A stretch of 53,886 nt of DNA from an archaeon (lineage in GTDB: Archaea; Thermoplasmatota; Thermoplasmata; Methanomassiliicoccales; Methanomethylophilaceae), in assembly GCA_024399195.1 (NCBI GenBank), contig JAKSHW010000002.1, positions 1 to 53,886 of the forward strand, in the 5' to 3' direction. This document shows, in pieces, positions 412-39,780 of the stretch. A program made the position numbers and the translations under genes. The notes under the pieces are model-generated. The model was given only the letters and a program-made list of their open reading frames with translations, had not been told where the DNA came from and did not search any database. Each line of letters begins with the position of its first letter. Within the stretch, counting starts at the first letter, position 1.

Positions 412-3174
412 GTGGTCAATGGTTCGTTAACTTCCGATGAAAGAATGAAGTTCGCAGCATCCGCGGAATCCGTGGATGTAGTAGACGAGTTAGGCAGTAA
501 GCCTGAGGGACTCACTCAGGAAGAAGTCGTTGCATCTCGCGTTCAGTACGGCAGGAATACCGTCACTAACAAGGATAAGCACCGTGTTGCCAGAAGGTTC
601 TCACGCGCATTCTTTAACGTTTTTGCACTTGCACTTTTCTGTTATGCATTCCTCGACATAATCCTGTGCGGATTGGACGTTCCCCACGACGGGATACTCG
701 ATCTGTTCGTTCAGGGTTACCTCGATGATTGGCAATTCGTCACCATTATTGTGTCACTGATCCTCATTTCCGGAGCGGTATCGTTCATACAGGAAACCAG
801 AAACACAAAAGTCGCCGACAAGCTCATCAGTATGGTGTCCACCACCATCACCGTCCGCCGTGACGGGGAAGAGGCCGAGGTCGATTCCAGGGATCTCGTC
901 GTCGGAGATATCATCATTATGGATACGGGAGACACCGTCCCCGCAGACGTAAGGATAATACAGTCCAACCATCTCAAGGTGGATCAGTCCGCCCTTACCG
1001 GTGAGTCCGTAGAGGTCACCAAGGTCTCGGACACCGACAGTCCCTCCAAACCTGTCCTTGAATGCAACAACATCGCATTCATGGGAACCAGCGTCGTCGG
1101 CGGAGCCGCAGAGGCCATCGTCGTCAACGTAGGAAACGACACTATTTTCGGGGCCATGGCCGACAAACTGTCCGGCAAAAGGCCCAAGACAACCTACGAC
1201 AAGGGAACCCAGAAGGTCGTCAAGCTCCTTCTGACCATCATGGTCTGCATGATCCCTCCCGTCCTTCTCATCATGATCGCCAAGGACCCCACTTGGGACG
1301 GGGTGTTCGATGCGATCAAGTACGCCATTGCACTCGCGGTCGGACTCATGCCCGAGATGCTTTCCACCATCGTCACCGCGAACCTTGCAAAGGGTGCCAT
1401 CGAGATGTCCAAGAAGAAGGTCATCGTCAAGGACATGACCTCTCTTCAGAACTTCGGAGCAATGGACATCCTCTGTTCCGATAAGACCGGAACCCTCACC
1501 CAGAACAAGATCTCCGTCAAATCCTGTTGCGACGTGTTCGGAAACAACAGCACCACCGTGGCCCTGTATTCCGCCCTCAACAGTTCCAACCTCACTTCCT
1601 CTACCAACCAGATCGATTGGGCCATCGACGAGTTCTCCGCAGAGAAGGACGAAATCGTCGACGAGATGGAGAAGTACACTTTCGTGAACGACCTCCCCTT
1701 CGATTTCATCAGGAGGAGGGCCACCGTCGTCGTCAAGTACAAGGGTGACGAGTACGACACCCTGATCACCAAAGGTGCGATACAGGAGATGCTTTCCATC
1801 TCCTCCGGATACATCGACGAGAACAGGGATATCCAGCCCCTTGACGACAAGGTCACCAACGACATCCTCGGTCTCGCCGAGTGGTACAGCACCAAGGGAA
1901 TGCGTGTCCTCGGAGTGGCTTACAAGCCCATCGCGGACGGAACCAAGTTCACCCCCGCCGACGAGTCCGACCTTATCATTGCAGGTCTCATCGTCTTCAT
2001 GGACCCCGTCAAGGAGACCGCTGCCGCCGCCATCAAGGACATGAAGGACTACGGAATCCAGGTCAAGGTCCTCACCGGTGACAACGAGTTCGTCACCAAG
2101 TACGTCTGTGACGAGATCGACCTCGAGACCTCCGACATCCTCGTAGGTTCCCAGATAGACGCCATGTCCGATGAAGATCTCGGAAAGGCTATGGAAACCT
2201 GCAACGTGTTCGCCAGGCTCACCCCCGACAACAAGGCACGTATCGTAAGCGTCCTCCGCAACAACGGACACACCGTAGGTCTTCTCGGTGACGGTATCAA
2301 CGATTCCGTCGCAATGAGGCAGGCCGATGTCGGTATCTCCGTCGACACCGGTGCCGATATCGCTAAAGAATCCGCAGACCTGATCCTCCTTGAGAAGGAC
2401 CTCGGAGTCCTCAAATCCGGAGCCATCGAGGGAAGATGCGTCTACGCCAACACGGTCAAGTACGTCAAGATGATCGGAGGAATCAACTTCGGTTACATGT
2501 TCTCCCTGATCATGGCCACCCTTCTGTTCAACTTCGAACCTATCGGAGCCATGCAGATCCTTGTGTTCAACCTTGTGAACGATATCGCATGCATGTTCAT
2601 CGCATGGGACAATGTCGAGGACGAGTACGTCCGTGAACCCCGTAAATGGGATACAACAAACCTGCGTACGGTCTTCGTCGGTTATGGACCTATGTGCTGT
2701 GTCACTGATGTCATCTCATGGACGTTCTTCGCGTTCGTGGTCATTCCCATGGCCTGCCCCGGCGTCACCAGCGGATGGGACGTCCTCATGGGTGGTTTCG
2801 TCACTGATATCGAGAGCGAGCTCGAGGCGATGTCCCCGCTTATGCAGGAACAGTCCCTCTACGCCGTCGCCATGTTCCAGACCTGCTGGTGTGTAGAGCA
2901 GTATTGGATGCAGGTATGGGCTATCCACATCGTAAGGAACAACAAGATCCCCTTCCTGCAGTCCTGGTCCGCACCCATCCTGGTCGTCACCACCCTTGCA
3001 GCCCTCGCCTGGGGTACCCTTGTACCCTTCACCCCCATCGGAGAAGCCATGGACATGGTCTTCATCCCCTGGTATGCCCTGGTGTTCATGCCCCTCATCG
3101 GACTCACCTACTTCACCATCGCATCCCTTGCAAAGAAACGTGTCATCAGGAAGCACGGTTACTTCGCCTGCTGA
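412..3174 (+). CDS. mgtA: Magnesium-translocating P-type ATPase
   Basis: A P3B-type P-type ATPase that imports Mg2+ across the cytoplasmic membrane using ATP. The 920 residues are a normal family length. Visible motifs are the actuator TGES (about residue 197), the phosphorylation site DKTGTLTQNK with the aspartate at about 357, and the hinge GDGIND at about 626. Membrane segments lie near 65-125 and 275-345, and six more follow residue 680. The GTG at 412 is preferred because an AT box (385-392) sits about 24 bases upstream and no Shine-Dalgarno sequence is present. An ATG at 445 would shorten the protein by 11 residues. The gene stands alone, with a strong terminator 21 bases after its stop. 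The hairpin array upstream suggests magnesium-responsive control, but that is inference. Confidence 0.95.
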   Translation: MVNGSLTSDERMKFAASAESVDVVDELGSKPEGLTQEEVVASRVQYGRNTVTNKDKHRVARRFSRAFFNVFALALFCYAFLDIILCGLDVPHDGILDLFVQGYLDDWQFVTIIVSLILISGAVSFIQETRNTKVADKLISMVSTTITVRRDGEEAEVDSRDLVVGDIIIMDTGDTVPADVRIIQSNHLKVDQSALTGESVEVTKVSDTDSPSKPVLECNNIAFMGTSVVGGAAEAIVVNVGNDTIFGAMADKLSGKRPKTTYDKGTQKVVKLLLTIMVCMIPPVLLIMIAKDPTWDGVFDAIKYAIALAVGLMPEMLSTIVTANLAKGAIEMSKKKVIVKDMTSLQNFGAMDILCSDKTGTLTQNKISVKSCCDVFGNNSTTVALYSALNSSNLTSSTNQIDWAIDEFSAEKDEIVDEMEKYTFVNDLPFDFIRRRATVVVKYKGDEYDTLITKGAIQEMLSISSGYIDENRDIQPLDDKVTNDILGLAEWYSTKGMRVLGVAYKPIADGTKFTPADESDLIIAGLIVFMDPVKETAAAAIKDMKDYGIQVKVLTGDNEFVTKYVCDEIDLETSDILVGSQIDAMSDEDLGKAMETCNVFARLTPDNKARIVSVLRNNGHTVGLLGDGINDSVAMRQADVGISVDTGADIAKESADLILLEKDLGVLKSGAIEGRCVYANTVKYVKMIGGINFGYMFSLIMATLLFNFEPIGAMQILVFNLVNDIACMFIAWDNVEDEYVREPRKWDTTNLRTVFVGYGPMCCVTDVISWTFFAFVVIPMACPGVTSGWDVLMGGFVTDIESELEAMSPLMQEQSLYAVAMFQTCWCVEQYWMQVWAIHIVRNNKIPFLQSWSAPILVVTTLAALAWGTLVPFTPIGEAMDMVFIPWYALVFMPLIGLTYFTIASLAKKRVIRKHGYFAC

Positions 3175-22599: not shown

Positions 22600-25500
22600 A
22601 TGAAAACGACAATGATGGCAACGGTATCGTTATTCCTCGCGATCGTCGGTCTTACGATCGTGGCGACATCGGTCGATGCGGATACTTCCGACGATTGGAT
22701 GTACAGCCTCGAAGAAGACGGCGCGGTGATAGACGGATACGCAGGTACGGATGCGGAGATATACATCCCGTACGAAATAGGTGGAAAACCGGTCGTAGCG
22801 ATAGGTACGAACGCGTTTTTGAAGAACAAGACGATAGTCTCCGTGAGCATACCTTCCACGGTCAGGGAGATCAGGGACAGTGCGTTCGACAGGAGCTCCG
22901 TCTCCACAGTGGTGTTCGAGGACGAAGGTCTGGACTTCATAGGGAACCAGGCCTTCTACAAATGTACGGAGCTGGTCTCCATCGAATTCCCGGAGTCCCT
23001 CCAGGATATAGCCAAAAGGGCGTTCAAGGGATGCACTTCTCTGGAAAACGTCAAGATGCCTTCCAAGATGAACAAGATCGCGGCCGAGGCCTTCTCTACA
23101 TGCACCTCCCTGAAATCGATAACGATCCCGGCGGAGGCCAACGTGAATTCGGAAAACGTGTTCAACGGATGCACCTCGCTTTTGGAAGTGATCGTCGACG
23201 AGGACGTTTCATACATAAGTTCCGCCACGTTCCCCAATCACAGGTTCTACAGCGTGGACGGAGAACCCCTTACCGACAGGAACGGGCTCAAAGGACGTAC
23301 GTTCCACGGTGTCTCCACCGAGGTCATGGTGGCAGACCAGCCCTGTATGGCGTATTTCATCTCAGATGGAGAGGTTTTCGGAATATACGACGGACCTGTC
23401 GGGACCCCCATCGTCGTCCCTGACGAGGAACCCAGGCGTGCAGGTCACACATTCGTAGAATGGAAAGGGTACATCGAAGGGATGTTGCTGACCTGCGATA
23501 TCGTCTTCGAGGCCGTGTTCGACATCAACAGCTATACCATAACGTTCATGGCCGATGGGGAGACGGTCTCATCGGACAGATACGAGTACGGCACTGTGAT
23601 CGTACCTCCGGAAGCCCCCGATAAGGAAGGTTACGACTTCGTGGCCTGGTCCGGTTTCACGGAAGGCATGACGGTCACCAGGAACATGACGTTCTACGCC
23701 GAATACGATGTGGAGAAGTACATGGTGGCGTTCCTCGTGGACGGGGAACCCTATTCCATATCCTATAAGGAGTACGGGGCGTTGATCATACCTCCCGGCT
23801 CTCCCGAGAAAGAGGGATACACGTTCGTGGGATGGAAGGACTATGTCAGGGGAATGACCGTTCCCGACCACAGCGTGACGTTCGATGCGATGTTCGAGGC
23901 GTTGGTCCTCACTCTGACCACCGTGGTCCTCGGCGAGGTCACGGAAACCCCTGTGCAGTACGGGGACATCCCTGATCTTCCCGCCCCCTCCGTGGAAGGA
24001 TACAATTTCGACGGATGGTACCTGGACCCCGCCTATTCAGAGGAGTATATCCCGGAACCTGTCTCCGACGATCTGACGCTCTATGCACGCATGGTCCCTG
24101 CAGACCCTTCGGGTTCGTGCGGAAGGGACCTATTCTGGACCATGTCCAACGACGGTGTGTTGACCATCTACGGTACCGGTGACATGTATTCCTGGGATTT
24201 CTCCACCAATATCGTCCCCTGGTACGGATACAGGTCCGAGATAATGAAGGTGGTCGTCTGCGAAGGTGCCACCTCAATAGGGCGCTACGCGTTCCATGAA
24301 TGCGATTCGTTGGTATCCGTCTCGATTCCGTTCACCCTCAATTCGATATCGGACGGGGCCTTCTTCAAATGCTACAGCCTCGTGGAGGTCTTTAACGACA
24401 GTCCCCTCAAGATCTCTCCCGGACATTCCGATAACGGACACATAGCGAGATACGCCGTGAACATCTATTCGTCGTTCGAAGGCGGTTCGATACTGTACGA
24501 AACTGTGGACGATGACGGATACGTATACATCTTCATGGACAGAGGCGACATCCATTTCCTCGTGAAATCCACGAAACGCGAGGGCGATGTGTTCCTCTCC
24601 GACGCCCTGTGCGACGGTACCGCCTATACCTTGGGGGTATACCAGTACGCGTTCTACGGATGCAGTTCCCTTCGGACGGTGACCTCGCCGTATGTGACCG
24701 CGATAGACTCCTATGCTTTCCAGGACTGTACTTCTCTCTACCTGGTTGACATGCCCGCCCTGAGATCGATCGGAACATCCGCGTTCTATAACTGCATGGC
24801 CCTGACCTACGTCTCTTCCACATGCATAGAGGTCGTCGGTGCCACCGCGTTCTTCCGTTGCAGCTCGCTCGAGATGCTGGACCTGCCAATGGTCGAGTAT
24901 ATAGGCAATTACGCCTTCTCCAGATGTTCGTCCCTCAGGGAGGTCGATCTTCCGTCCGTGTCCTCGATAGGGGATACCGCGTTCAGCGGTTGCACTTCCC
25001 TCATCCGTCTCAGCATCGGCGACGTGTCAGACAAAGGCATCGGGGCGGTGTCCATGGAGATCCTCGGTGCAGGTGAGACCGTGAGCTATTACTTCGTACC
25101 CGCCCGTACAGGCACCATGGTCGTCACCACCGCGGGTTCCTGCGACACCTACGGTATGCTCGTATATGCCGACGGTACTTTCGTCATGGATGATGACAGT
25201 GGTGACATGCGCAACTTCATGATCGTCTTCGATGCGGTCGCAGGTATCGGATACACCTTGGAGGTGGGTACCTATTCCGTTTCTGACGACAATGTGTTCT
25301 GGACCATGTTCGAGGAAGGGACCTTCGTATGTCCCCTCCAGTCCACTGTCTATCTGGGGAACGGAGCGTTCCAGAACTGCACCTCCCTGGAATACGTGTC
25401 CCTAGGCCCCGCGGTGTCCGTCATAGGCAGGGACGTGTTCAACGGGCTCGTGTTCATGGTAGGCGGATCGGTGGTCGAGCCCACCTGTGACAACCTCGCA

Positions 25501-26793
25501 GGAAGGACGTTCACCGGTAACGGGGACCAGGTCCTCCGTGCCGAGAATCCGGACGTCCACACCGTGACGTTCTACTTCGGAAAATACAACCTGGTCTACA
25601 CGTTGGTCCACGGATCCCCTGTGGAACTTCCGGCTCCCGTCCCATCCGACATCCATTCCGATGGAAACGTCCTCGTCTTCAACGGTTGGAACGGTTATCA
25701 CGACGGTATGGTGGTGGAGTCCGACCTAGTCTTCACCCCTTCGTTCAAGGTGGAAGGGTCGTACGAGGTCACCGTGATCTACGGAGACGGTTCTTCCGAA
25801 ACCCTGTACGTATCGCCCGGAGAGACGGTCGTACCTTCCAAACCCGTCCATAGGTTCTATCTCGATGAGGAAAGGAACGTGTCCTGGCCTTCGTCGTCCA
25901 AGGTGTTCCACGACCTCGTCCTGTATGCGGACGCATACTACTCCGGAGCCGCAGGGGAGACCGCCTACTGGTCGTTGGACCTGTCTACGGGAACTCTAAG
26001 GATATACGGCGAGGGTAAGACCTACAACTGGTCTGTGAAGACCACGCCCTGGTACCAGTACAGGGGAAGCATAACGTCCGTGGTCATCGACGAAGGCATC
26101 ACATCGCTCGGATCGTATGCAGTCTACAAATATTCCCACGTCACAGACATAACCGTGTCCGACACGGTCGAACATGTGGGAAAATACGCCTTGGTGTCGT
26201 ACGTCCTGGAACATCTCCGTGTAGGGTCCGGACTGTCTGACCTGGGGCTCAGAGGATTCCATGGGATGACCCTATACGACAACGGGAACGAACGTACCGT
26301 GAAGGTGGACAATCTTCGTTCCAAGGAGTATATGGGCATGTCCGGGGCCTTGGACCTCGTCGCCATCAGAGGCATCGCAGGGGATTTGTCATGGACCATC
26401 GACTGCAACGACAAGACCCTTATAGTGTACGGCGAAGGTTCCACCGGAAACTGGACCGCGACCAGTGCACCCTGGTACCAGTACAGGGGATACTTCGAGA
26501 ACGTCTTCGTCGGAAAAGGTGTGACCGAGATAGGGGACTTCGCCTTCTATTCCTATTCCAAGGTGAAGACCGTGGTCTTCGGAGACGATGTGGTCAGGAT
26601 CGGTAAGAACTGCATCAGAGGCTGTCCTTTGGAGAAGGTCACTTTCGGGGACGGACTTTCCGTCATAGGTTCCAACGCCCTTACCGGATACGTCTTCATG
26701 ACCATGGAAGGTAAGGAACTGAAACCTTCGGTGAAGAACCTTGCAAGCCACACGTTCGTTGGTAACGGCGGATCCATGGTCCGCGTGGTCTGA
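22600..26793 (+). CDS. BspA-like leucine-rich-repeat surface protein with InlB-type repeats
   Basis: A 1397-residue secreted protein with a signal peptide (residues 1-28, KTTMMATVSLFLAIVGLTIVA). Domains in order: BspA-type LRR_5 repeats (about 60-215, ..AFxxCTSLxxIxIP..); three InlB B/Flg_new-type repeats (about 275-505, for example ITFMADGE to EGYDFVAWSGF); a module starting GSCGRDLFWTMSNDGVLTIYG; more LRR_5 repeats (about 560-810); a jelly-roll-like section; a further InlB-type repeat (about 985-1040); and two more W-SLD/GTLRIYGEG plus pWYQYRG modules. Such proteins bind host or microbial surfaces. No C-terminal membrane anchor or sorting signal is visible, so it may be released or held by other means. 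GGTGA precedes the ATG by four bases. Confidence 0.92.
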   Translation: MKTTMMATVSLFLAIVGLTIVATSVDADTSDDWMYSLEEDGAVIDGYAGTDAEIYIPYEIGGKPVVAIGTNAFLKNKTIVSVSIPSTVREIRDSAFDRSSVSTVVFEDEGLDFIGNQAFYKCTELVSIEFPESLQDIAKRAFKGCTSLENVKMPSKMNKIAAEAFSTCTSLKSITIPAEANVNSENVFNGCTSLLEVIVDEDVSYISSATFPNHRFYSVDGEPLTDRNGLKGRTFHGVSTEVMVADQPCMAYFISDGEVFGIYDGPVGTPIVVPDEEPRRAGHTFVEWKGYIEGMLLTCDIVFEAVFDINSYTITFMADGETVSSDRYEYGTVIVPPEAPDKEGYDFVAWSGFTEGMTVTRNMTFYAEYDVEKYMVAFLVDGEPYSISYKEYGALIIPPGSPEKEGYTFVGWKDYVRGMTVPDHSVTFDAMFEALVLTLTTVVLGEVTETPVQYGDIPDLPAPSVEGYNFDGWYLDPAYSEEYIPEPVSDDLTLYARMVPADPSGSCGRDLFWTMSNDGVLTIYGTGDMYSWDFSTNIVPWYGYRSEIMKVVVCEGATSIGRYAFHECDSLVSVSIPFTLNSISDGAFFKCYSLVEVFNDSPLKISPGHSDNGHIARYAVNIYSSFEGGSILYETVDDDGYVYIFMDRGDIHFLVKSTKREGDVFLSDALCDGTAYTLGVYQYAFYGCSSLRTVTSPYVTAIDSYAFQDCTSLYLVDMPALRSIGTSAFYNCMALTYVSSTCIEVVGATAFFRCSSLEMLDLPMVEYIGNYAFSRCSSLREVDLPSVSSIGDTAFSGCTSLIRLSIGDVSDKGIGAVSMEILGAGETVSYYFVPARTGTMVVTTAGSCDTYGMLVYADGTFVMDDDSGDMRNFMIVFDAVAGIGYTLEVGTYSVSDDNVFWTMFEEGTFVCPLQSTVYLGNGAFQNCTSLEYVSLGPAVSVIGRDVFNGLVFMVGGSVVEPTCDNLAGRTFTGNGDQVLRAENPDVHTVTFYFGKYNLVYTLVHGSPVELPAPVPSDIHSDGNVLVFNGWNGYHDGMVVESDLVFTPSFKVEGSYEVTVIYGDGSSETLYVSPGETVVPSKPVHRFYLDEERNVSWPSSSKVFHDLVLYADAYYSGAAGETAYWSLDLSTGTLRIYGEGKTYNWSVKTTPWYQYRGSITSVVIDEGITSLGSYAVYKYSHVTDITVSDTVEHVGKYALVSYVLEHLRVGSGLSDLGLRGFHGMTLYDNGNERTVKVDNLRSKEYMGMSGALDLVAIRGIAGDLSWTIDCNDKTLIVYGEGSTGNWTATSAPWYQYRGYFENVFVGKGVTEIGDFAFYSYSKVKTVVFGDDVVRIGKNCIRGCPLEKVTFGDGLSVIGSNALTGYVFMTMEGKELKPSVKNLASHTFVGNGGSMVRVV

Positions 26794-28425: not shown

Positions 28426-28617
28426 GGTATCGGTCAGAGTAAGTATCGGTGGTACTTGATTATGTCCGAAGATGGTGTGGGACTTCGGGCGATGGGTTCC
28501 GGTTAGGTGGACGAGTCCGTAGTGGAATCGACTGTTCTATAATGTCCCATCTTCCCGTTCCAGAGGTACATCCTTCACCCGATTTTTCCCACTATATGGA
28601 TGTTTGAACATATATTT

Positions 28618-28657
28618 ATATTACACTTAAATGTAATATTATTAATAAATGTAATAT
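28618..28657 (+). promoter_or_regulatory. Operator and TATA box of the CARF regulator
   Basis: Inverted repeat ATATTACA (28618-28625) and TGTAATAT (28632-28639), with a third half-site TGTAATAT at 28650-28657. The third copy overlaps the best TATA box (TAATATAC, 28652-28659), which is 25 bases before ATG 28680. Segment 28611-28638 recurs in the CRISPR leader at 32061-32088 with two mismatches. Confidence 0.6.
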
Positions 28658-28679
28658 ACCTTGTATGCATTGTACGTGT

Positions 28680-29645
28680 ATGGCAGACCGTCTCACCCAC
28701 GACAAGGTAATGATCGCATGTGTGACCAGGGAGGTCACCCTCATAGTCCAACCCGCTATCGACAACAACGTGGACCGTGTCCATCTGATCCACTTTGTGA
28801 AGAAATCCTCTGACAAAAGCGACCGTTCCGACCTTTACCAGGAGTTCTACGATGAGAACGAACGTCGTCTTAAGGAGAATGGCATCGAGGTCGTGGAACA
28901 TTCGGACGCCGCCGTTTACAATTTCCGTGCCATGATGGCGGAAATCTACTCTATACTCCTGGATGAAAAGAAGAACATGAAGAGCCAGGTCTACGTCAAC
29001 CTTTCCGGGGGGACATCAGAATACACTGCGGCCGCCGCCATAACCTCGATGATGTTCGAGGACGTCGAGATATTCACCGTGGGGAAGAGCTATGAGGGCA
29101 TGACGGAGAATTACGAGCAGATCCGTGAGAGCTGCATGAAGGATGGACGTCTTGTGGGCAGTTGTGTGAAGATATCCGGTACCTACAACATCGACAGATT
29201 CCCTATCGAGGTCCCTGACCGCAATCTCTTGAAAGCCTACAAGGTCTACTGCACCATGGCAGACAACGGACACAAGGTATCCAACACCGCCGTCATACGC
29301 AACCTCATACTGAAGGACATATGGATGTCCAGAGGGGATATGGAGACCGGTTCGGTGATAAAGGGTACGTCTGTGGAACTCGAGGATCCCGCCAAGGGAT
29401 ATGCATGTCCCAGATCCCATGAATTCGAATATGCCAGAAGGCAGAGGGGTGAAGCGGTGCAGTATTTCCGCAACTACGTCAGCGAATGGTTGGCCAAGGG
29501 TTGGATAAGGCAGATCAACAAGACGAAAAGGTACATGATCACTCCCGAGGGGAGGAACGTCCTCGAGATATTCTGTCCATCGAAGGTCATGGCGTACGAC
29601 AAGGACGATATCGCCGTACAGGTGGAGAAATTCTGTACGGACTGA
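28680..29645 (+). CDS. CARF/winged-helix regulator (HFX_2341/DUF6293-like)
   Basis: A 321-residue archaeal regulator. The N-terminal Rossmann-like domain (1-150) holds a CARF-type signature, YVNLSGGTSEYTAAAAI (about 107-123), the loop that binds cyclic oligoadenylate or similar nucleotides in CRISPR-linked proteins. The C-terminal half (about 180-305) is helical with a winged-helix appearance (SEWLAKGWIRQINKTKRYMITPEGR). ATG 28680 is favoured over ATG 28665 because TAATATAC is centred 25 bases before it. A palindrome at its promoter implies self-control, and the same motif lies in the CRISPR leader. Ligand is inferred, and no cOA synthetase is visible nearby. Confidence 0.78.
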   Translation: MADRLTHDKVMIACVTREVTLIVQPAIDNNVDRVHLIHFVKKSSDKSDRSDLYQEFYDENERRLKENGIEVVEHSDAAVYNFRAMMAEIYSILLDEKKNMKSQVYVNLSGGTSEYTAAAAITSMMFEDVEIFTVGKSYEGMTENYEQIRESCMKDGRLVGSCVKISGTYNIDRFPIEVPDRNLLKAYKVYCTMADNGHKVSNTAVIRNLILKDIWMSRGDMETGSVIKGTSVELEDPAKGYACPRSHEFEYARRQRGEAVQYFRNYVSEWLAKGWIRQINKTKRYMITPEGRNVLEIFCPSKVMAYDKDDIAVQVEKFCTD

Positions 29646-29704
29646 CATTGCACCGTACCGTAATGTTTTACACAACCCCGAAGTGTGAAACAACAGGAAA
29701 AAAC

Positions 29705-29712
29705 GGTATATC
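29705..29712 (+). promoter_or_regulatory. TATA box deciding the exporter start
   Basis: GGTATATC is centred 25-26 bases before ATG 29734 and only 10 before the first in-frame ATG (29719), so the later ATG is favoured. Confidence 0.6.
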
Positions 29713-29733
29713 CGTCCAATGGCATGTATGCTC

Positions 29734-31260
29734 ATGTCAGATAAACTGACCTACGAGAACATCGACCCACGCAGCAGGTCATTGATAATGCTCGGTCTCG
29801 CGATCGCGATGCTGGCGGCCTGTTTCGACGGTACCATCACCACCACTTCGGGTCCTGTGATCGCTAGGGTTTTCGATTCCTTCGATATGCTGCCTTGGTT
29901 GACGGTGGCATACCTGTTATGTGAGACCGTGATGGTCCCCCTTGCGGGTAAACTGTCCGATCTGTACGGCAGGAAAAAACTGTTGAACATAGGACTTGTG
30001 GCGTTTATGGCCAGTTCGCTGTTGGCCACGTTCTCCCCTAGCATGGAAGTGCTCATCGTCGCACGTGCCGTACAGGGTATCGGAGGAGGTATCCTCATCC
30101 CCGTGTGTACCGCGGCCGTATCCGACCTCTACGCCCCCGAGACCAGAGGAAAGATCCAGGGTGCCATCGGTGCGATCTACGGTATAGGTATGGGTGCAGG
30201 CCCCCTCATAGGCGGTGCACTCTGCAGCATCTCCGATCTCGGATGGCATATCTCGTTCTTCATCAACGTCCCCATAATCCTGGTGATCTTCGCCCTCTGC
30301 AAGAGGCCGTTCCCTGGAATGATGGACGATGGAAAGAAGCCCACGATCGATTACAAAGGTATCGCACTTCTTTCTGCGGCACTCATCATGACCATAGCAT
30401 TTTTCGAGAGTATCGGAAAAGCGTTCGATATAGTCAGTATCGAGTCCTTTGTAATGGTCCTGGTGATCTTCCTTTTGTTCGGATCGTTCTTCAGTGTAGA
30501 ATCCGTGGCAGCGGAACCGATCATCGCCCCCCATGTTCTCAGGAACCCCACCGTAAGGTCAGCATCCTTGTTGTTGCTCATATTGGGATTCGCAATGGTC
30601 GGAGACGAGCTGTTCTCATCCATGTACATGCAGAGGGTCGTCGGATTCTCGGCCATGGAAGCAGGAATGTTCGTCGTCATCATGGTCATAGGCATGTCCA
30701 TAACGTCATCCATTGCCGGCGCTACCATGGGCAGGACCGGATACAAACCTTGGATAGCGGCCGGGCCTGTGCTCATGGGTCTTGGATTCTTCCTATTGTC
30801 CTACATCACCCCTGAATTCAACGCGGTGGAGTTTGCCGCCGGTGAGTTCCTGTTCGGGGCGGGAGGAGGGTGTCTCATAGCATCCCTTATGACCGCCGTC
30901 CAGAACAGCTGTGACGAACACGAGGTCGGTATGACCACCTCCGCCGTATCCATGTTCAGGAACATCGGTTCCACCGTAGGTTCCACCGTGTTCACCCTGA
31001 TCGTCAATGCGATCGTCTACACCGAGGCCGTCGGGACCCCTGCGGAACCTTACAGGGACATGGGTATCGGTATCCTCAACGTGCTCGGATCGGTCAGCGA
31101 GACCGTGGGTGAAGCTATCAAGCTGGTCTTCACGGACTCCGTCGGATATGCGTTCGGTGCCGGAGCACTTGCTCTGCTCGTTGCGACCGTTATCGGGTTC
31201 AGGTTCAAGATTGTTCGGACTTCTCATACAAAGAACGCTATTGAATGTGAAGAAAATTGA
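29734..31260 (+). CDS. MFS multidrug exporter, DHA2 (EmrB/QacA) family
   Basis: A 508-residue proton-coupled exporter with 14 predicted membrane helices. Family motifs are visible: LAGKLSDLYGRKKLL (motif A, about 70-84) and ARAVQGIGGGILIPV (motif B, about 109-123). Motif C-type GIGMGAGPLIGG follows near 149-160. Substrates of the family include drugs, bile-type amphiphiles and dyes; which applies here is unknown. The start is placed at ATG 29734 by its TATA box. The gene stands alone downstream of the CARF regulator, 88 bases after it, with its own promoter. Confidence 0.9.
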   Translation: MSDKLTYENIDPRSRSLIMLGLAIAMLAACFDGTITTTSGPVIARVFDSFDMLPWLTVAYLLCETVMVPLAGKLSDLYGRKKLLNIGLVAFMASSLLATFSPSMEVLIVARAVQGIGGGILIPVCTAAVSDLYAPETRGKIQGAIGAIYGIGMGAGPLIGGALCSISDLGWHISFFINVPIILVIFALCKRPFPGMMDDGKKPTIDYKGIALLSAALIMTIAFFESIGKAFDIVSIESFVMVLVIFLLFGSFFSVESVAAEPIIAPHVLRNPTVRSASLLLLILGFAMVGDELFSSMYMQRVVGFSAMEAGMFVVIMVIGMSITSSIAGATMGRTGYKPWIAAGPVLMGLGFFLLSYITPEFNAVEFAAGEFLFGAGGGCLIASLMTAVQNSCDEHEVGMTTSAVSMFRNIGSTVGSTVFTLIVNAIVYTEAVGTPAEPYRDMGIGILNVLGSVSETVGEAIKLVFTDSVGYAFGAGALALLVATVIGFRFKIVRTSHTKNAIECEEN

Positions 31261-31268
31261 TTTTTTTG

Positions 31269-31284
31269 CCGGGGGAAACCCCGG
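31269..31284 (+). terminator. Hairpin after the exporter gene
   Basis: Perfect six-pair CCGGGG-GAAA-CCCCGG stem eight bases after the stop. A T-run precedes it but none follows, so termination is probable rather than certain. Confidence 0.55.
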
Positions 31285-31541
31285 TATATAGTCAAATATA
31301 GTCTTATATTATATACCAATGGGATTATTAGTTAGTTAATAATTATTGATTTAATAATATTATAAATTAAATATTATCATTTAATTATTAAATTATTTAA
31401 AAAATTATAATTTTTAATAATCAAACAACTAATAAATCTTCAATATGTAATAATTGTAAATTAATTATTTTAGAAGTATGCATCACAGGCATGATTCATT
31501 TACTAATGTGGTATGGGTAGTCTTAGATTAGAAATCTTGAT
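31285..31541. other. Very AT-rich gap at the trailer end of the CRISPR array
   Basis: No gene seen. It contains GGTATATA/TATATACC inverted ends (31283-31317), two TATAGTC copies, and long A/T stretches. It may hold the remains of older spacers, but no repeat can be recognised. Confidence 0.4.
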
Positions 31542-31974
31542 ATTTCAATTCACACACCCGTGAAGGGTGTGACACTCGCCTCGTCCCCAAGGTCATACAT
31601 ACGATGAATTTCAATCCACACACCCGTGAAGGGTGTGACCCGCCTGCAAATCGACCGCGATAACCGTCACGATATTTCAATCCACACACCTGTGAAGGGT
31701 GTGACGTTGACCGGTCCGGAGTTGCCGACGGAGTGGAAATCATTTCAATCCACACACCCGTGAAGGGTGTGACGCAAAGACACCCTGTATTTCCTTGCGA
31801 CATCCCAATTTCAATCCACACACCCGTGAAGGGTGTGACCCATCGCCAATGCGATGCCGAGCGTGGACTTTCCCATTTCAATCCACACACCCGTGAAGGG
31901 TGTGACGTCCAGGGACGAGGACAAACCCAAAAGGCCCAGGAGATTTCAATCCACACACCCGTGAAGGGTGTGAC
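31542..31974 (-). CRISPR. CRISPR array, 7 repeats, type I-C-like, transcribed leftwards
   Basis: Seven 32-base repeats start at 31542, 31608, 31674, 31742, 31808, 31875 and 31943. The six spacers are 34, 34, 36, 34, 35 and 36 bases long. On the minus strand each repeat starts GTCACACCC, folds through CACACCC/GGGTGTG around TTCAC, and ends GGATTGAAAT, as in type I-C repeats. The 3' ATTGAAAT would form the crRNA 5' handle. Repeats at 31542 (C to T) and 31674 (C to T) carry single changes. The altered outermost left repeat marks the old end, so the leader is to the right. No cas gene occurs in the window. Confidence 0.95.
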
Positions 31975-32307
31975 CGCAAGATGGTACCATTCGGGGAACT
32001 TCATCATCATCATTCGGTTTTATTAGGTTTTTAAGCTAATTGTAAGTTGGATGTTTTTCTTATATTTATATTTCATTTAAATGTAATAAATGAAATATAT
32101 ACAATATATTTGAATCAATAGATTTTCTATAGATTCGTTTAAACAGAATGCGTATTCGTACAATTGTGAAGATCTCATGTGTATGACATTGAATCATGTA
32201 TGCGTTTTGTATTACCTTTTTATAAATAGTATGTTCTGATTATTACTATTTTTAAAGAAATATTATCAATAATATCGATTAAATAGTAGCTAAATCATTG
32301 AAAAAAC
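31975..32307. promoter_or_regulatory. CRISPR leader and DMT-transporter promoter region
   Basis: 31975-32012 is GC-rich and spacer-like but lacks an outer repeat. The rest is AT-rich leader. 32061-32088 repeats the CARF-regulator operator (26 of 28 bases). It also forms a longer palindrome ATATTTCATT/AATGAAATAT (32068-32098). On the minus strand a TATA-like segment at 32060-32071 would start pre-crRNA near 32040. On the plus strand TTAAATAG (32279-32286) is 26 bases before ATG 32308. Confidence 0.65.
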
Positions 32308-33225
32308 ATGGATAAGAAGGTGATGGCGATTTCGTTCGCGATCCTTGCAGCGGTGTTCTACGCCGTGAACGTTCCTATGTCCAAGATCCTCCTTGAGCAT
32401 GTGGGTCCCTCTATGATGTCTTCATATCTCTATCTCGGGGCCGGAGTAAGTATGGGCGTGTTGTATTTTTTCACCAAGGGCAGGATCCCTGAGCAGGAAC
32501 ATCTCTGTAGATCGGACTTGAAGTACACGGTCGGAATGGTGTTGCTCGATATCGCCGCACCGATCCTTCTGATGTACGGATTGATGATGACCACTCCAGA
32601 AAACGTATCCCTCCTGAACAATTTCGAGATCGTCGCAACATCATTGATCGCGTTCACGATCTTCAAGGAAGCTATCAGCAGGGAGCTTTCCATTGCGATA
32701 ATCCTGATCCTGATCTCCGGTATGATCCTGTCCTATGAAGGTTCGGAAGGTCTTGTTTTCAATGCCGGTTCCCTTTGCGTTATCGGCGCATGTATCTGTT
32801 GGGGTCTGGAAAACAACTGTACGCGTGCGATAAGCGAGAGAAGTTCCACCGAGATCGTGACCGTGAAGGGACTTTGTTCCGGTACCGGGTGTTTCATCAT
32901 TGCATTGGCTACGGGGGAGGTCGTTCCCGAGGTCATGTATGTTTTAGCCACCATGGCATTGGGAGTCGTCGCATACGGGCTCAGTATCAACCTCTATATC
33001 AAGGCCCAGAGGCACATAGGTGCGGCCAAGACCGGGGCCTATTATTCGGTGGCACCGTTCATAGGGGTCTTTTTCGCTTTGTTGATATGGGGCGAGGTTC
33101 CTGGAATCTCGTTCTTCATCGCATTTATCATAATGGTCCTTGCCACGGTCCTTGTGATCAAAGATTCGCTGGGGTGGACATGGTCTGGAAACAGACCTTC
33201 GGCCCAGGACGATCTCGATATATGA
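32308..33225 (+). CDS. DMT-superfamily (EamA) transporter
   Basis: A 305-residue inner-membrane permease with about ten helices in two EamA halves. The first half starts AISFAILAAVFYAVNVPMSKILL; the second (about 160-285) ends near GVFFALLIWGEVPG. EamA proteins export amino acids, nucleosides or other metabolites, and no substrate can be named here. ATG 32308 has a TATA box (TTAAATAG) centred 26 bases upstream and no Shine-Dalgarno sequence. Its last 184 bases are overlapped on the other strand by the extended C-terminus of the AlbA_2 gene. A second, distant EamA gene lies at 52709. Confidence 0.9.
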   Translation: MDKKVMAISFAILAAVFYAVNVPMSKILLEHVGPSMMSSYLYLGAGVSMGVLYFFTKGRIPEQEHLCRSDLKYTVGMVLLDIAAPILLMYGLMMTTPENVSLLNNFEIVATSLIAFTIFKEAISRELSIAIILILISGMILSYEGSEGLVFNAGSLCVIGACICWGLENNCTRAISERSSTEIVTVKGLCSGTGCFIIALATGEVVPEVMYVLATMALGVVAYGLSINLYIKAQRHIGAAKTGAYYSVAPFIGVFFALLIWGEVPGISFFIAFIIMVLATVLVIKDSLGWTWSGNRPSAQDDLDI

Positions 33226-34601
33226 TCCGGTCGGACCTCTTGTCGGGGATCACGGCAAGAGGTTCGATCACCCATTCGATGGACAACGATCCACAATCCG
33301 TTCTTTTTTGAACCTTCGCGGACCAAGATGCCCCTTTTCCTCAGGGAATTAATGGTGGCGATGATTCTGTATTCGCTCGATCCTGTCTTTTCGGCCATGC
33401 GACTTATAGGAAGCGTTGGGTCTGTGGAAATGAGGTCTAGCAGTATCATTTCGTCCGAGGTCATTGCACCTATCGGTGTTTTCGGTGAATTGACCGGTTT
33501 ACGTAGGAACTGGAACGTAAACGAGTAATCGTCCTGGGCATAGGTGTATCCTATCCCTGTGGCCGAACACACGGTGAACACCCGATGGAATCCGGTTCCG
33601 AACGCATCGATGGATCTGTTGAGGTACAATGCATTGGCGATCAGGGGATTACGGAGATAGGACGGTGACGATCCTTCTGCATACGATAAGGGATCCTTCC
33701 CTTCTGGAAGACCGCCGGGGTTGCTTATGCTGAGCCGTTTCGGGGTGAGGAATATCTCGTTATACGGCTGCGATCCGTATTTCATATGGGCGAAGCTGTT
33801 GATCACGATCTCCCTGATCGCTTCGGTCGGTATCTCGGGGGTTTCCATCCTTTTCAGACCTATGATCTCTGCGGACCAGTGGATGTTCGAGCGGATGTAT
33901 TTCAGGGCTTCCTCTATGCATTCGAATACGTTACCGTCAAACTGTTTTATATCGGAAAATCCCAGGCGTTCATCCGTGTTGAATATCGCCAGTTTCAGTT
34001 TCAACGGTTTTGACAATGAGAACAGATAGTAGCCGGCATTGTTCAGTTCGTTCTCGGAATACATTAGTCCGAGCTTGGACAAGGTCGTTTGTGTATCACG
34101 GTAGAGGTAATCCAAACGACCTGTTTCGTTACATTGGTCTATGAAGTCGATCAGACGTGATTCGTCTACGCACTCAAGCGTATGACCGGAACGTTGTTGT
34201 TCCCACCTGTTCTGGGTGTCTCCAGATCTTTCAAATGCTTGGCGAAGTTGCAGAGGAGTCATCTGTAAGTCTTCGTCATCTGAACGGATGTAGTATCTTC
34301 CAAAAGCGGAATAGGGGGCATCACATCCGCTCACATCCACTTTTATTACTTGACCCCCTTCATGGTTCACAATCGAGATATACGGTGTTACAACGGGTCT
34401 TAGGTTATCTCTGACGATTACCGATATGTCTCTTGTCGTATTTTCACCGATCATCATTTTATGGCATATTCCACCGCTGTTATCGATTCCGAAATATACG
34501 GTTCCATGACCGTGCTTGTTTAACATCGACGACATGGAGATTACCGATTGTTTCAACTCCTTGGTGGTTTCTTTGAATTCTACTGTTTCGGACTCCCTCA
34601 T
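33042..34601 (-). CDS. AlbA_2 (Schlafen AlbA_2-type) putative transcriptional regulator
   Basis: A 519-residue regulator. The N-terminal AlbA_2 domain (about 1-115) opens SETVEFKETTKELKQSVISM and includes GTVYFGIDNSGGI. A GHKL-like C-terminal ATPase region follows (about 255-370, EAIREIVINSFAHMKYG then PGGLPEG). Last comes a winged helix (about 385-440, ISRMAEKTGSSEYRIIATINSLRKRGILVREGSKKNGLW). The usual family end is near this GLW. About 80 further residues run on, and the last 60 are antisense to the DMT transporter, so a stop was probably lost. ATG 34601 has TAAATAAA about 26 bases upstream. Targets unknown. Confidence 0.85.
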   Translation of the reverse strand: MRESETVEFKETTKELKQSVISMSSMLNKHGHGTVYFGIDNSGGICHKMMIGENTTRDISVIVRDNLRPVVTPYISIVNHEGGQVIKVDVSGCDAPYSAFGRYYIRSDDEDLQMTPLQLRQAFERSGDTQNRWEQQRSGHTLECVDESRLIDFIDQCNETGRLDYLYRDTQTTLSKLGLMYSENELNNAGYYLFSLSKPLKLKLAIFNTDERLGFSDIKQFDGNVFECIEEALKYIRSNIHWSAEIIGLKRMETPEIPTEAIREIVINSFAHMKYGSQPYNEIFLTPKRLSISNPGGLPEGKDPLSYAEGSSPSYLRNPLIANALYLNRSIDAFGTGFHRVFTVCSATGIGYTYAQDDYSFTFQFLRKPVNSPKTPIGAMTSDEMILLDLISTDPTLPISRMAEKTGSSEYRIIATINSLRKRGILVREGSKKNGLWIVVHRMGDRTSCRDPRQEVRPDHISRSSWAEGLFPDHVHPSESLITRTVARTIMINAMKNEIPGTSPHINKAKKTPMNGATE

Positions 34602-34927: not shown

Positions 34928-36049
34928 ATGGTCCAGATAAACGACAGTCCGATCAACAACAGCTCCGAAGACCTCCTTCACAGGAAAGACCTTGCAAAAT
35001 ACCTTGCGGATACGATCCGTACCCACGATGTCACCAACAGTTTCTCCATAGCGGTCTGTGGCAAATGGGGTTGTGGAAAGACCTCGTTCCTCAACATGGT
35101 CCAAAGCGAGTTCGACGATTCGGAAAAGGTGGTGTTCATCAACTACAATCCATGGATCTACACCAATCAGACCGACCTCACCAAGGAGTTTTTCAACACA
35201 TTCCTGGACACCATAGACGTCCGCAACAACCTGATAAAGAAATCCAAGAAGGTCATCAATGCGGCCCAGGTGGGGATGAAGGTGGTCGAACCCATCTTCG
35301 GATCGAACGCCATATTCAAACAGTTGAAACAGTACATCACCCTTCTTTCCACGGACAATACCGTCACAATGTCCCTCAAGGAGACCAGGAACAGGATATC
35401 GGACATCCTGAAGAAGACGAAGTACCGTTTCGTGGTGATCCTCGATGACATGGACCGTCTGGAACGCAACGAGATCGTCATGTTGATAAAACTCGTCAGG
35501 ACGGTTGCGGACTTCCCCAATGTGATCTATCTTCTGGCCTATGACGAGGACATAATGTCCAAGGCATTGACCACCGACCTTTACGCAGGTGGGGACTATC
35601 TCCACAAACTGGTCAACATGAGCATAGATCTTCCTGCGATCGGGGACGGTTTCGTTCCCCAACAGGTCATGGGACACTACAAGGACGTCGTGGGCGATCT
35701 GGACGAACGTGCCACAAGGGCGATCCTGGACTCCGTATCCGCGATAGACACGGTACGTGAGATCAATCTGCTCTTCAGGCGTTTCATTTCCGATTATGCC
35801 GTTCTCAGAAACCGTATAGATCCGGTGGACCTGTTGGTTCTGGACATCATAGAGGTCAAAGACCGCGATCTGTACAACACGATCAGCGATAACAGGTCGG
35901 CCCTTTGCAACGGTCGGCCGGACATGGAGGTTCCGCAGAGGTTGGAAAAACTGGTTTCCATCCTCTTCCCCCGGTATCTCGATGTCTCCGCCGAGATCTC
36001 CGAAGGGAAGAGGATATGCGATCCGAAGTATGTGGACGGTTACTTCTGA
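34928..36049 (+). CDS. KAP-family P-loop NTPase (short form)
   Basis: A 373-residue NTPase of the KAP (Kidins220/PifA) family. Walker [10 protein letters not shown] (about 44-52) and Walker [11 protein letters not shown] (about 172-181) are intact, with [12 protein letters not shown] (about 73-84) typical of the group. KAP proteins often act at membranes and in phage exclusion. No transmembrane insert is visible here; residues 105-125 are only moderately hydrophobic. The protein stops right after [13 protein letters not shown], a position where most KAP proteins continue with a further C-terminal region, so this looks truncated. Its end overlaps the convergent surface-protein gene by ten bases. 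A TATA box lies at 34893-34900. Confidence 0.85.
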
Positions 36050-39000
36050 TCGGACCTCAGGAGCTTTCCGTCCACAAGGTCGAAGGTATGTCCCGCGACC
36101 TTTTCGGCGGTTCCCAGTTTGGTTGTTCCTGTCGAGTTGTAGAGGAGAAGACCGAGTGACAGTGCGGAATAGGACTTCAGACCGGTTCCGAACTCCACAT
36201 GTTCCACGTTCAGACAGTCCTTGATGGCGTACTTTCCGAGGACCTCCAGACTGTCCGGCAATACGACGGATACGAGGTTGTCGCATCCGTAGAATGTGAA
36301 TGCACCGATGGAAACGATTCCTTCGGAGAGCTCCAAGGTCCTGATCAGGTTCCTGTACCCGTACCAGGGGACATCGCTGTTCTTCTCGAACGGGTCCATG
36401 GAACCGTTTCCTGACAACGTGAAGCTGCCGTCGGTGACACTCAGGTTCCAGGACAGGCCGTCTATGGAACCACGGACGTTCACAAGGTTCAGGACACCGT
36501 CCGATCCGAAATACTCCTTGCCCGCAACCGCGTTGCTGTCGGTCTTCACGGAAACCCCGTCTTCCAACAGGGACATCCCATGGAATCCGCGGAGACCGAC
36601 GGACGAGATGTTCGTTCCGATGTCCAGGTGTACCAATCCGTATACCGCAACCGCGTACTTTCCGATGGACACCACACTGTCGGATATGACGACATCCGTG
36701 AGGTAGGGGTACTTGTAGAAGGCGTATGCCCCGAGACTGGTGATACCGTTCTCTACGACAACGTTTGAGATGTAGTTGCGGTAGGTGTACCAGGGGGCGG
36801 TGGTGGCTTTCCAATCATACGTGTCCCCAGTTCCCGAAACGGTCAATGTGCCAGTGCCGAAATCGAGGGACCAGGCGGAACCGTCACCTGCGGTACCGGA
36901 CGCCTCGTTGACCGCATACACGGTGATGTCCGAGTAGACCTTGGTCGTAGGGGACCAGATATCGGTCATCTCTTCGTCCTTGTAGTATTTCCATACGCGT
37001 CCCGGTTCGGAAAGGGCCGATCCGATGACGGTCTCCACATGTCTCACGGTCCCATCGTTGTAGACTATCGTCACGGTACAGACGTTGTCCGCCTTGAAAA
37101 CCGCCTTTATGACGAGCCCGTCATAGGACCTGAGCCCCTCGTGATAGCCGTCCCATCCGACGAACGTGTACGAGACCCCGTCCACAGTGGGTTTGACCGG
37201 GATTATAGGCAAGGGGGAGAGAAACGCGTCGGCAGGAGTCACGACAGGGAGCAGGAGTCCGTCTATGTCGTAGGTCACGACCACGGTACCTGTTGCGGGG
37301 ATCTCCACGTAGGTGCTGTGATCGCATCTGGAACAGGTTTCGTATGCGTACCATCCGTGCTCGGTAGCGGTCGGTTCCTTGGCCTCATGGTGGACAAGGT
37401 CATGTCCCAGTGCGGGTATCACCGTCTGTTTGATCAGGACCTCGCCGCATACGGAACAGTAGTATCCGTCGGAAAGACCGTCCTCGGTGCAGGTCGCAGG
37501 GTATCCGGGAATAAGGACCTCGGTATGGGGGAGTCTCTCTATGACGATATGTTCGGATGAAATGACCTCGCCGCACCTTTCGCAGTACACGACGATGTCG
37601 TATCCGCCCTCTTCGGAACAGGTGGGGTCCTTCATGTTCTCGATCACAGGTTCTCCGGGCAGATGTCCCAGTGCAGGGATGGTCTCCTGTTCCACCAGCA
37701 TCTCGCCGCACACGGAACAGTGGTATCCGTCGGAAAGACCGTCCTCGGTGCAGGTCGCAGGGTATCCGGGAATAAGGACCTCGGTATGGGGGAGTCTCTC
37801 TATGACGATATGTTCGGATGAAATGACCTCGCCGCACCTTTCGCAGTACACGACGATGTCGTATCCGCCCTCTTCGGAACAGGTGGGGTCCTTCATGTTC
37901 TCGATCACAGGTTCTCCGGGCAGATGTCCCAGTGCAGGGATTACCTCCTGTTCAACAAGTATCTCGTCGCACACTTTGCAGTGGGATCCTTCGGTCAGAC
38001 CGTCCTCGGTGCAGGTGGGTTCCACCCTGGGATCGATGACGGACGTGTGTTTCTCCTTGGGTATCGTGATGGTCTTGCTCGTAAGTTTTTCACCGCACAG
38101 TATGCAGTAGGTCACGATGTTGCAACTTCCCTCTTCTGTGCAGGTAGGTCCTACATAGTCTTCCATCACCGCAGGTCCGGGGATATGTTCGAGCTTGGGT
38201 ATGATCTCCTGTTTAACAAGGATCTCTTTGCATATCTCGCAATGCGACCCTTCGGTCAGACCTGTACTGTCGCAGGTGGGTTCCACCCGGGGGTCGATGA
38301 CCACGGTGTGAGGCAGTTTTTCAAGGACCACATGTTCCACGGACACGGTCTCCCTACAGACGATGCACACGGTGACGAGGTCGTAGCCCCCTTCCTCGGT
38401 GCAGGTGGGTTCCACATGGTTTTCAACATATGGTTCGGATCCGATATGGTGGGTCACGGTGTATACGGTCAGGTCGTTGTATACGGGGGTCTCGGCATCG
38501 AACGGCACCGTATAGTCCGGGTCCGTATACCATCCGTGGAATCCTTCGACACCTGCCATAGGATCATATTCAGACAGGGTTTTTCCATATGGTACGTAGA
38601 CAGTCTCGTTCTCCCCGTCTATATTACATATTACAGTAAAGGTCAACCTCACAAGGTCGCCTTCGTGTCCGATATAGGTGTATCCTGGGATCTCTTCCGA
38701 TGTCAGAGGTTCTCCGACATGGTCACTGAACGTGAGTCCTTTGAACGCATCGTCGGCCATCGTGGACACTGACCGGGGTACGGTCAACCATGTGACGGCC
38801 ATACACCCTGCGAACGCTCCCGTACCTATCGATACCGTACCTTCGGGTATGGTGTAGGACGTCTTCGAACCGGGATACAGGACCAAGGTGGTCAGATCTT
38901 TGCTGAAAAGCACTCCGTCCACCGAACGGAACGACGGATTGTTGGCGAGTACGTTTATGGATTCGACGGAGGAGCAACCTTCGAACGGACAACCGACAAG

Positions 39001-39780
39001 GGTCACCAGACTGTTGGGTAAGGAAAGGGATGTGAGGGAGACACAGTCCTTGAACGCACCTTCCCCTATGGTCTTCACGGCGGAGACAGTCAACGACCTT
39101 AGGGAAGTACATCCCTGGAAAGAGCTTTTCCCAATCTCCGTGGCGGTCACCACAGTGGCGGTTTCCAGACAGGTGCAGCCATAGAACGCAAAGTCTCCGA
39201 CATATGCCACGCTTTTCTTTATCGACACGACCTTGAGGACGTCCCTGTACGCATACCAAGGGGCTTCGCCCGCTTCGTAGTCATACATGCCTCCGGTCCC
39301 GGAGACGACCATGTCCCCGTTCTCGTATAACGAATACGTCACATCCTCCCCGCATTTCCCTTCGGAAAGGAGCGGGACCTCTTCGAAACCGGTGACCACG
39401 ACCTTGAGGTCTATGGGGAGTTCGAAATCCCCTATGTACGATTCGTAGCTCAGTACGGTGCCCGAACCTGCAGGGAATACGGGTTTGGGATCGTTGTTGA
39501 GCGTTATGGGATTGGAGACCCCGTTCACGGTCATCACCAGGGTCAACCCTTCGGGCGAGGTCTGGAAACCTTCCTTCGGGGTCAGTTGCAGGTAGAACAC
39601 CGTGAAATCCTCGTTGTAATCGGTGAACACCCTGGAGTATGGGTTTATGGGTCCATCGTACGGTATGACTATGTCGACATGGTGGTCAGCGGCCTCCGTA
39701 TCGTCTGCGATAGCAACCGATGCGGTAACGGTCACAGCGATCAGGATCGCCACGGCGATGAGTTTCTCTGTCGTCCTCAT
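36040..39780 (-). CDS. Large BspA-like surface protein with CxxC repeats
   Basis: A 1246-residue secreted protein with a signal peptide (about 1-32, [22 protein letters not shown]). Domains in order: an N-terminal sandwich-like region; a [21 protein letters not shown] module; LRR_5 repeats (about 195-350); an InlB-type end ([15 protein letters not shown]); then four 87-residue units plus a half unit. Each unit has two CxxC pairs (such as CERCGE and CSVCGE), each preceded by a PTC..EG-type cysteine, and likely binds metal or forms disulfides. Another InlB-type segment and two [18 protein letters not shown] modules with pWYTYRN-like motifs follow. No C-terminal anchor is visible. AAGGAG precedes ATG 39780 by eight bases. 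Confidence 0.9.
37462..37941. repeat. Perfect 219-bp direct repeat inside the surface gene
   Basis: Positions 37462-37680 and 37723-37941 are identical base for base, with a period of 261 bp (87 codons, in frame). They encode the third and fourth CxxC units. Identity at silent positions shows a recent duplication or gene conversion. The other two units have diverged. Confidence 0.9.

Follow-up and report, generated by a model that had tools for sequence, protein, structure and literature searches.

One CARF-wHTH regulator probably controls both its own gene and an orphan CRISPR array, because comparison with relatives indicates that the site common to the two loci is the regulator family's own operator. 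We place at roughly two in three the probability that the regulator encoded at 28680-29645 uses this site as its operator and thereby, as a sensor, controls itself and the array. The window, which is the whole stretch of DNA analysed, comprises 53,886 nucleotides from an archaeon of the Methanomethylophilaceae that we take to be a gut-type methanogen. The original prediction had proposed a single sensor acting on itself and on the array; its core idea is well supported, with an operator of the regulator's family at both sites, but the two sites are not equivalent in layout. The elements concerned are:

28680..29645, plus strand: gene of the CARF-wHTH regulator, 321 aa (PF19810, PADLOC CARF3, structure model)
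31542..31974, minus strand: CRISPR array of 7 repeats of 32 nt, GTCACACCCTTCACGGGTGTGTGGATTGAAAT on the minus strand, type I-C-like (orientation from the relative G143)
28611..28638, plus strand: first copy of the shared 28-mer, in the regulator promoter, TATATTTATATTACACTTAAATGTAATA
32061..32088, plus strand: second copy of the shared 28-mer, in the CRISPR leader, TATATTTATATTTCATTTAAATGTAATA

Regulator, orphan array and shared site

By profile search, the regulator is a PF19810 (HFX_2341-like) CARF protein of the CARF3 clade: its N-terminus matches HFX_2341_N (PF19810) with an E-value of 1.8e-14 and 54.7 bits, the curated cut-off being 30, and the PADLOC CARF3 model matches with an E-value of 1e-57. 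A second in-frame ATG is located at 28665. The predicted structure (pLDDT 83.5) alternates strands and helices in its N-terminal part and forms helices and a short hairpin in its C-terminal part; Foldseek matched this model to CARF proteins, including Csa3 (2wte, E 2.8e-6). The modelled fold is that of a CARF Rossmann domain with a C-terminal winged helix, the latter taken from secondary structure alone. Membership of the Csa3 family is not supported, as the profile search gave no Csa3 match in the PDB and no cas genes are adjacent. No CARF relative was found on viral contigs. Cas10 is the usual source of cyclic oligoadenylate. Its palm domain was not found in this genome, which is 89% complete, so that a cyclic-oligoadenylate ligand is not supported here, and a ligand or source other than cyclic oligoadenylate and Cas10 is possible.

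The array has no adjacent cas genes, as had been claimed, and the genome contains no other match to its repeat. It runs on the minus strand with the leader at its right, an orientation supported by the leftmost repeat, which is a variant, and by the geometry of G143, a relative in which a type I-C-like array is arranged in the same way next to cas-like genes that, read by eye, follow the I-C order Cas3-5-8-7-4-1. The repeat closely resembles that of this cas-adjacent array, which places the orphan array with type I-C. Cas1, Cas7 and Cas10 were not found in the 89% complete genome, and cas3_core gave matches below the cut-off only; given this lack of detected cas genes, the array is possibly inert. 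A GC-rich, spacer-like stretch (31975-32009) separates the leader-proximal repeat from the AT-rich leader and has no closing repeat on its leader side; a repeat has perhaps been lost here, leaving a leader unable to take up new spacers. Two array sequences, one spacer and one spacer-like stretch, gave no match to viral contigs. In G036, the sole member of the genus with a Cas7 match, no array is present in the 19.5 kb covered of that contig.

Beside the array, a Schlafen/AlbA_2 protein (33200-34601) and a KAP NTPase (34928-36049; PADLOC PifA, E 9e-57) are encoded, which possibly form a small defence cluster. The region lies between the genes of two very large, repeat-rich proteins of surface type (22600-26793 and 36040-39780), in which BspA-like leucine-rich repeats were recognised by eye.

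The two 28-mers agree at 26 of 28 bases at the predicted coordinates and lie on the same (plus) strand; because the array runs on the minus strand, they are opposite relative to their transcripts. Shuffling of the window (n = 100) yields an expectation of 0 such matches, and in dinucleotide-shuffled versions of both AT-rich regions the best 28-mer match had a mean of 18.7 and a maximum of 23, with 26 or more never reached in 3000 trials. Throughout the 2.27 Mb genome, the site occurs with at most 3 mismatches at these two places only, contrary to the possibility, raised at the outset, of a motif found at many AT-rich promoters. The palindromic half-sites and the third half-site proposed for the regulator promoter are likewise present, namely ATATTACA (28618-28625), TGTAATAT (28632-28639) and, 18 bp (2 x 9) from the second, another TGTAATAT (28650-28657). 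The leader carries ATATTTCA (32068-32075), TGTAATAA (32082-32089), TGAAATAT (32091-32098) and TACAATAT (32100-32107); a 9-bp register joins the last three (32082, 32091, 32100), so that the units at 32091-32098 and 32100-32107 continue the register outside the 28-mer.

The operator in related genomes

We collected 90 homologues of the regulator from Methanomassiliicoccales and analysed the promoters of 80 non-redundant ones, which show a pronounced periodicity of 9 (z = 18.5 at lag 9 and 9.8 at lag 18, with z about 4 or less at other lags). In these promoters, TGTAAT-type hexamer pairs spaced by 9 bp were observed 21 times, against 0.1 expected. In the operator, an inverted core (about TTAACA-N6-TGTAAT) precedes a tandem series of 9-bp units (WTGTAATWW). 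As judged from this pattern, the site shared by regulator promoter and leader is the predicted conserved operator of the regulator's family. Conservation in related genomes thus extends to homologue promoters across Methanomassiliicoccales, including that of the closest orthologue (56%) in G039 of the same genus; the 26-mer of the site itself is matched in only 3 of 147 genomes. In the open-licence literature, we found no description of this operator.

The strongest evidence comes from models trained on relatives, because these are blind to both sites under study. A position weight matrix (PWM) was trained on relatives only, leaving out the regulator's own promoter and the leader, and was applied to both strands of the 54 kb window. 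The leader ranks first and the own promoter second, and the score of each was reached in 0 of 2000 shuffles:

28618..28657, plus strand: predicted regulator operator, inverted core 28618-28639 and unit 28650-28657, with a degenerate unit at +9 (PWM 22.0 bits)
32068..32107, plus strand: predicted leader operator, inverted core 32068-32089 and units 32091-32098 and 32100-32107 (PWM 23.9 bits)

A sequence-only model built from 20 relatives returned the own promoter as its first match in the genome and the leader as its fourth, with weak E-values of 2.5 and 8.6, so that only the ranks are striking; two further weak matches, on C309 and C290, point to no obvious target. Two further candidates were discarded. 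An operator-like site left of the array (31433..31478, plus strand) scores 19.4 bits, but 29 of 2000 shuffles reach this value (p about 0.015). In G074, the strong site lies downstream of the regulator gene (locus on the minus strand), and the regulator's own promoter scores 12.4 bits.

Strong operators are present in 37 of 75 genomes with a CARF gene versus 4 of 72 without (p = 1e-9) and, when only sites away from CARF genes are considered, in 17 of 75 versus 4 of 72 (p = 0.004), both comparisons being tallied by hand. The operator is tied to the regulator by this far higher frequency in genomes with a CARF gene, and the co-occurrence bears on the explanation by a widespread AT-rich promoter element, reflecting TATA/BRE context or a global AT-binding protein. 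All regions concerned are indeed AT-rich, and in relatives the operator is also found at unrelated genes, for example between ABC-transporter-like genes. The restriction to two places in the genome, the strict 9-bp register and the lack of an operator match at the genome's own distant CARF paralogue on C46 speak with the co-occurrence against such an element, which we consider highly improbable.

The relatives' matrix bears equally on another view of the leader copy, in which a stretch of the regulator promoter was duplicated, arrived along with the array and now serves no purpose. An additional 8-mer, GGATGTTT, is common to 28598-28605 and 32049-32056, upstream of the 28-mers at an offset shifted by 1; it may reflect common descent of a longer piece and speaks, as does the lack of detected cas genes in the genome, for a functionless duplicate. 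Beyond the 28-mer, however, the leader has units in register (TGAAATAT and TACAATAT), the corresponding unit of the regulator promoter being degenerate, the matrix scores the leader above the own promoter, and both substitutions give a half-site variant that is used as a unit in relatives. We therefore regard a functionless duplication as unlikely and favour an operator that is in use at both loci.

Two layouts of the operator

At CARF promoters of relatives, the units come after the core, on its start-codon side, in 11 of 12 cases (11 forward, 1 reverse), whereas at other genes they lie upstream of the core in 21 of 24 (21 reverse, 3 forward). This contrast has a nominal p of 6e-6, to be read with the facts that genes were called by a simple script, that some loci are near-duplicates, that the PWM learned its orientation from CARF promoters in the forward direction and that about half of the reverse cases concern one orthologous neighbour gene, unrelated targets alone giving about 10 versus 3. 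In reverse-layout targets, the core abuts a TATA-like sequence, TTATTATAT. The corresponding promoter elements in the window are:

28611..28620, plus strand: candidate TATA box of the regulator (sequence reading)
near 28653-28660, plus strand: alternative TATA box of the regulator, AATATACC, directly behind the last unit; this position would fit a leaderless transcript
32060..32070, minus strand: candidate pre-crRNA TATA box, TATAAATATAA, adjoining the core (sequence reading; target-promoter layout in relatives)

Read on the minus strand, the leader presents the units, the core and, at 32070-32060, TATAAATATAA, which lies some 90 nt ahead of the first repeat. Relative to the pre-crRNA, it therefore has the layout of a target promoter. 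Since the layouts at regulator and leader differ, equal effects at the two sites are not to be assumed.

The leader site might instead act on the plus strand, with the EamA transporter gene (32308-33225) rather than the array as its target. In plus orientation, its layout is that of the regulator promoter, with units downstream of the TATA box and EamA downstream on the same strand, and deletion of the family member HFX_2341 mainly affects transport and metabolism genes according to the available sections of its report (PMC11434293). The EamA start, however, is about 200 nt from the operator, compared with at most 94 nt at CARF promoters, TATA-like sequences lie closer to it (32217-32230), and the reverse orientation usual among non-CARF targets (21 of 24) points to the array. 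Control of EamA in place of the array is thus quite unlikely.

In the proposed mechanism, CARF-wHTH dimers would bind along the core and the repeat units. At the regulator's own promoter, where the units extend from the TATA region in the direction of the start codon, binding would block the start region and lead to self-repression. In the leader, where the units lie upstream of the core and the pre-crRNA TATA box, it would suit activation or ligand-controlled recruitment of general factors; the array would be under direct control, possibly by activation. Whether the regulator binds would depend on a nucleotide ligand of its CARF domain, and the sensor would thereby set its own level and the crRNA output of the orphan array. 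If the TATA box of the regulator is AATATACC instead of 28611-28620, the units would lie upstream there too and self-repression would be a weaker reading.

An operator in a CRISPR leader was found in this genome and in no second species. Scans of G143 and of G089, in which the contig does not include the leader, revealed none at another array, and in relatives no CRISPR repeat is present at 20 operator loci far from CARF genes. In relatives, operators often lie just after the CARF gene, at the start of a conserved peptide some 50-60 residues long (M-YYKQTLLSPLP...YDKYG type), which follows the reversed operator in L199 (about 3055-3130), L200 (3036-3212), L203 (3424-3597), L204 (3293-3454), L212 (1658-1813), L216 (3434-3610) and others. 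This peptide, for which the one member searched gave no Pfam match, is likely the main conserved target of this branch of regulators. Operators are also located before a TBP paralogue, a Schlafen/AlbA_2 protein and a SIMPL protein and beside ABC-transporter-like genes, at the loci L235 (2097-2732), L234 (1522-2754), L223 (2490-3251), L149, L148 and L151. In G039 (L040, 2944-3654), the operator separates the regulator from a divergently transcribed gene whose product resembles, by eye, an NYN/PIN-type nuclease. A broader reading, on balance somewhat doubtful, is that of a CRISPR-independent CARF branch in which one operator serves self-repression or target activation depending on its orientation and into which the orphan array of this cas-poor genome has been recruited; crRNA production would then be under a nucleotide sensor with a ligand of non-type-III origin.

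Comparison with known regulators

Many archaea encode CARF-wHTH regulators outside cas loci. The novel elements described here are the operator, its two layouts and its predicted role at an orphan array, in a genome (89% complete) that yielded no Cas1, Cas7 or Cas10. The type of circuit is not new, because MM_0565 of Methanosarcina mazei is a close published precedent (PMC7465815). Purified MM_0565 binds its own promoter with a KD of 285 nM and the type I-B leader with a KD of 0.96 uM, and it binds the leaders of both CRISPR arrays; it requires the whole 60-nt AT-rich promoter region including BRE and TATA, with no clear motif (PMC7465815). It is regarded as mainly an activator, and its overproduction left cas and crRNA levels unchanged (PMC7465815). 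Both proteins combine CARF and wHTH and have their own promoter and a CRISPR leader as sites, through a shared predicted operator in the present case. They differ in that MM_0565 is encoded beside a cas operon, whereas the array described here has no cas genes, and in that a defined operator with 9-bp units takes the place of a region without a motif.

HFX_2341 of Haloferax mediterranei (PF19810/DUF6293) belongs by name to the same Pfam family and, like the present regulator, is not linked to CRISPR loci. Its overexpression represses cas genes; its main effects are on nutrient transport genes, and the available sections of its report describe no operator or direct binding (PMC11434293). Csa3a and Csa3b of Sulfolobales regulate cas operons (PMC7480081, PMC8844856) and resemble our regulator in being CARF-wHTH proteins, with the Foldseek match to 2wte; their sites consist of two palindromes, in contrast to the tandem 9-bp units found here.

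The reports on the two closest studied regulators give no DNA-binding motif: none was found for MM_0565 (PMC7465815) and none is reported for HFX_2341 in the available sections of PMC11434293. A sharply defined operator would make the targets of CARF-wHTH regulators predictable by sequence alone and amenable to simple binding and ligand tests. The locus described here would be a direct example of a CRISPR array governed by a regulator from outside any cas locus, and its operator would help to find out which signals CARF domains detect where a genome lacks Cas10.
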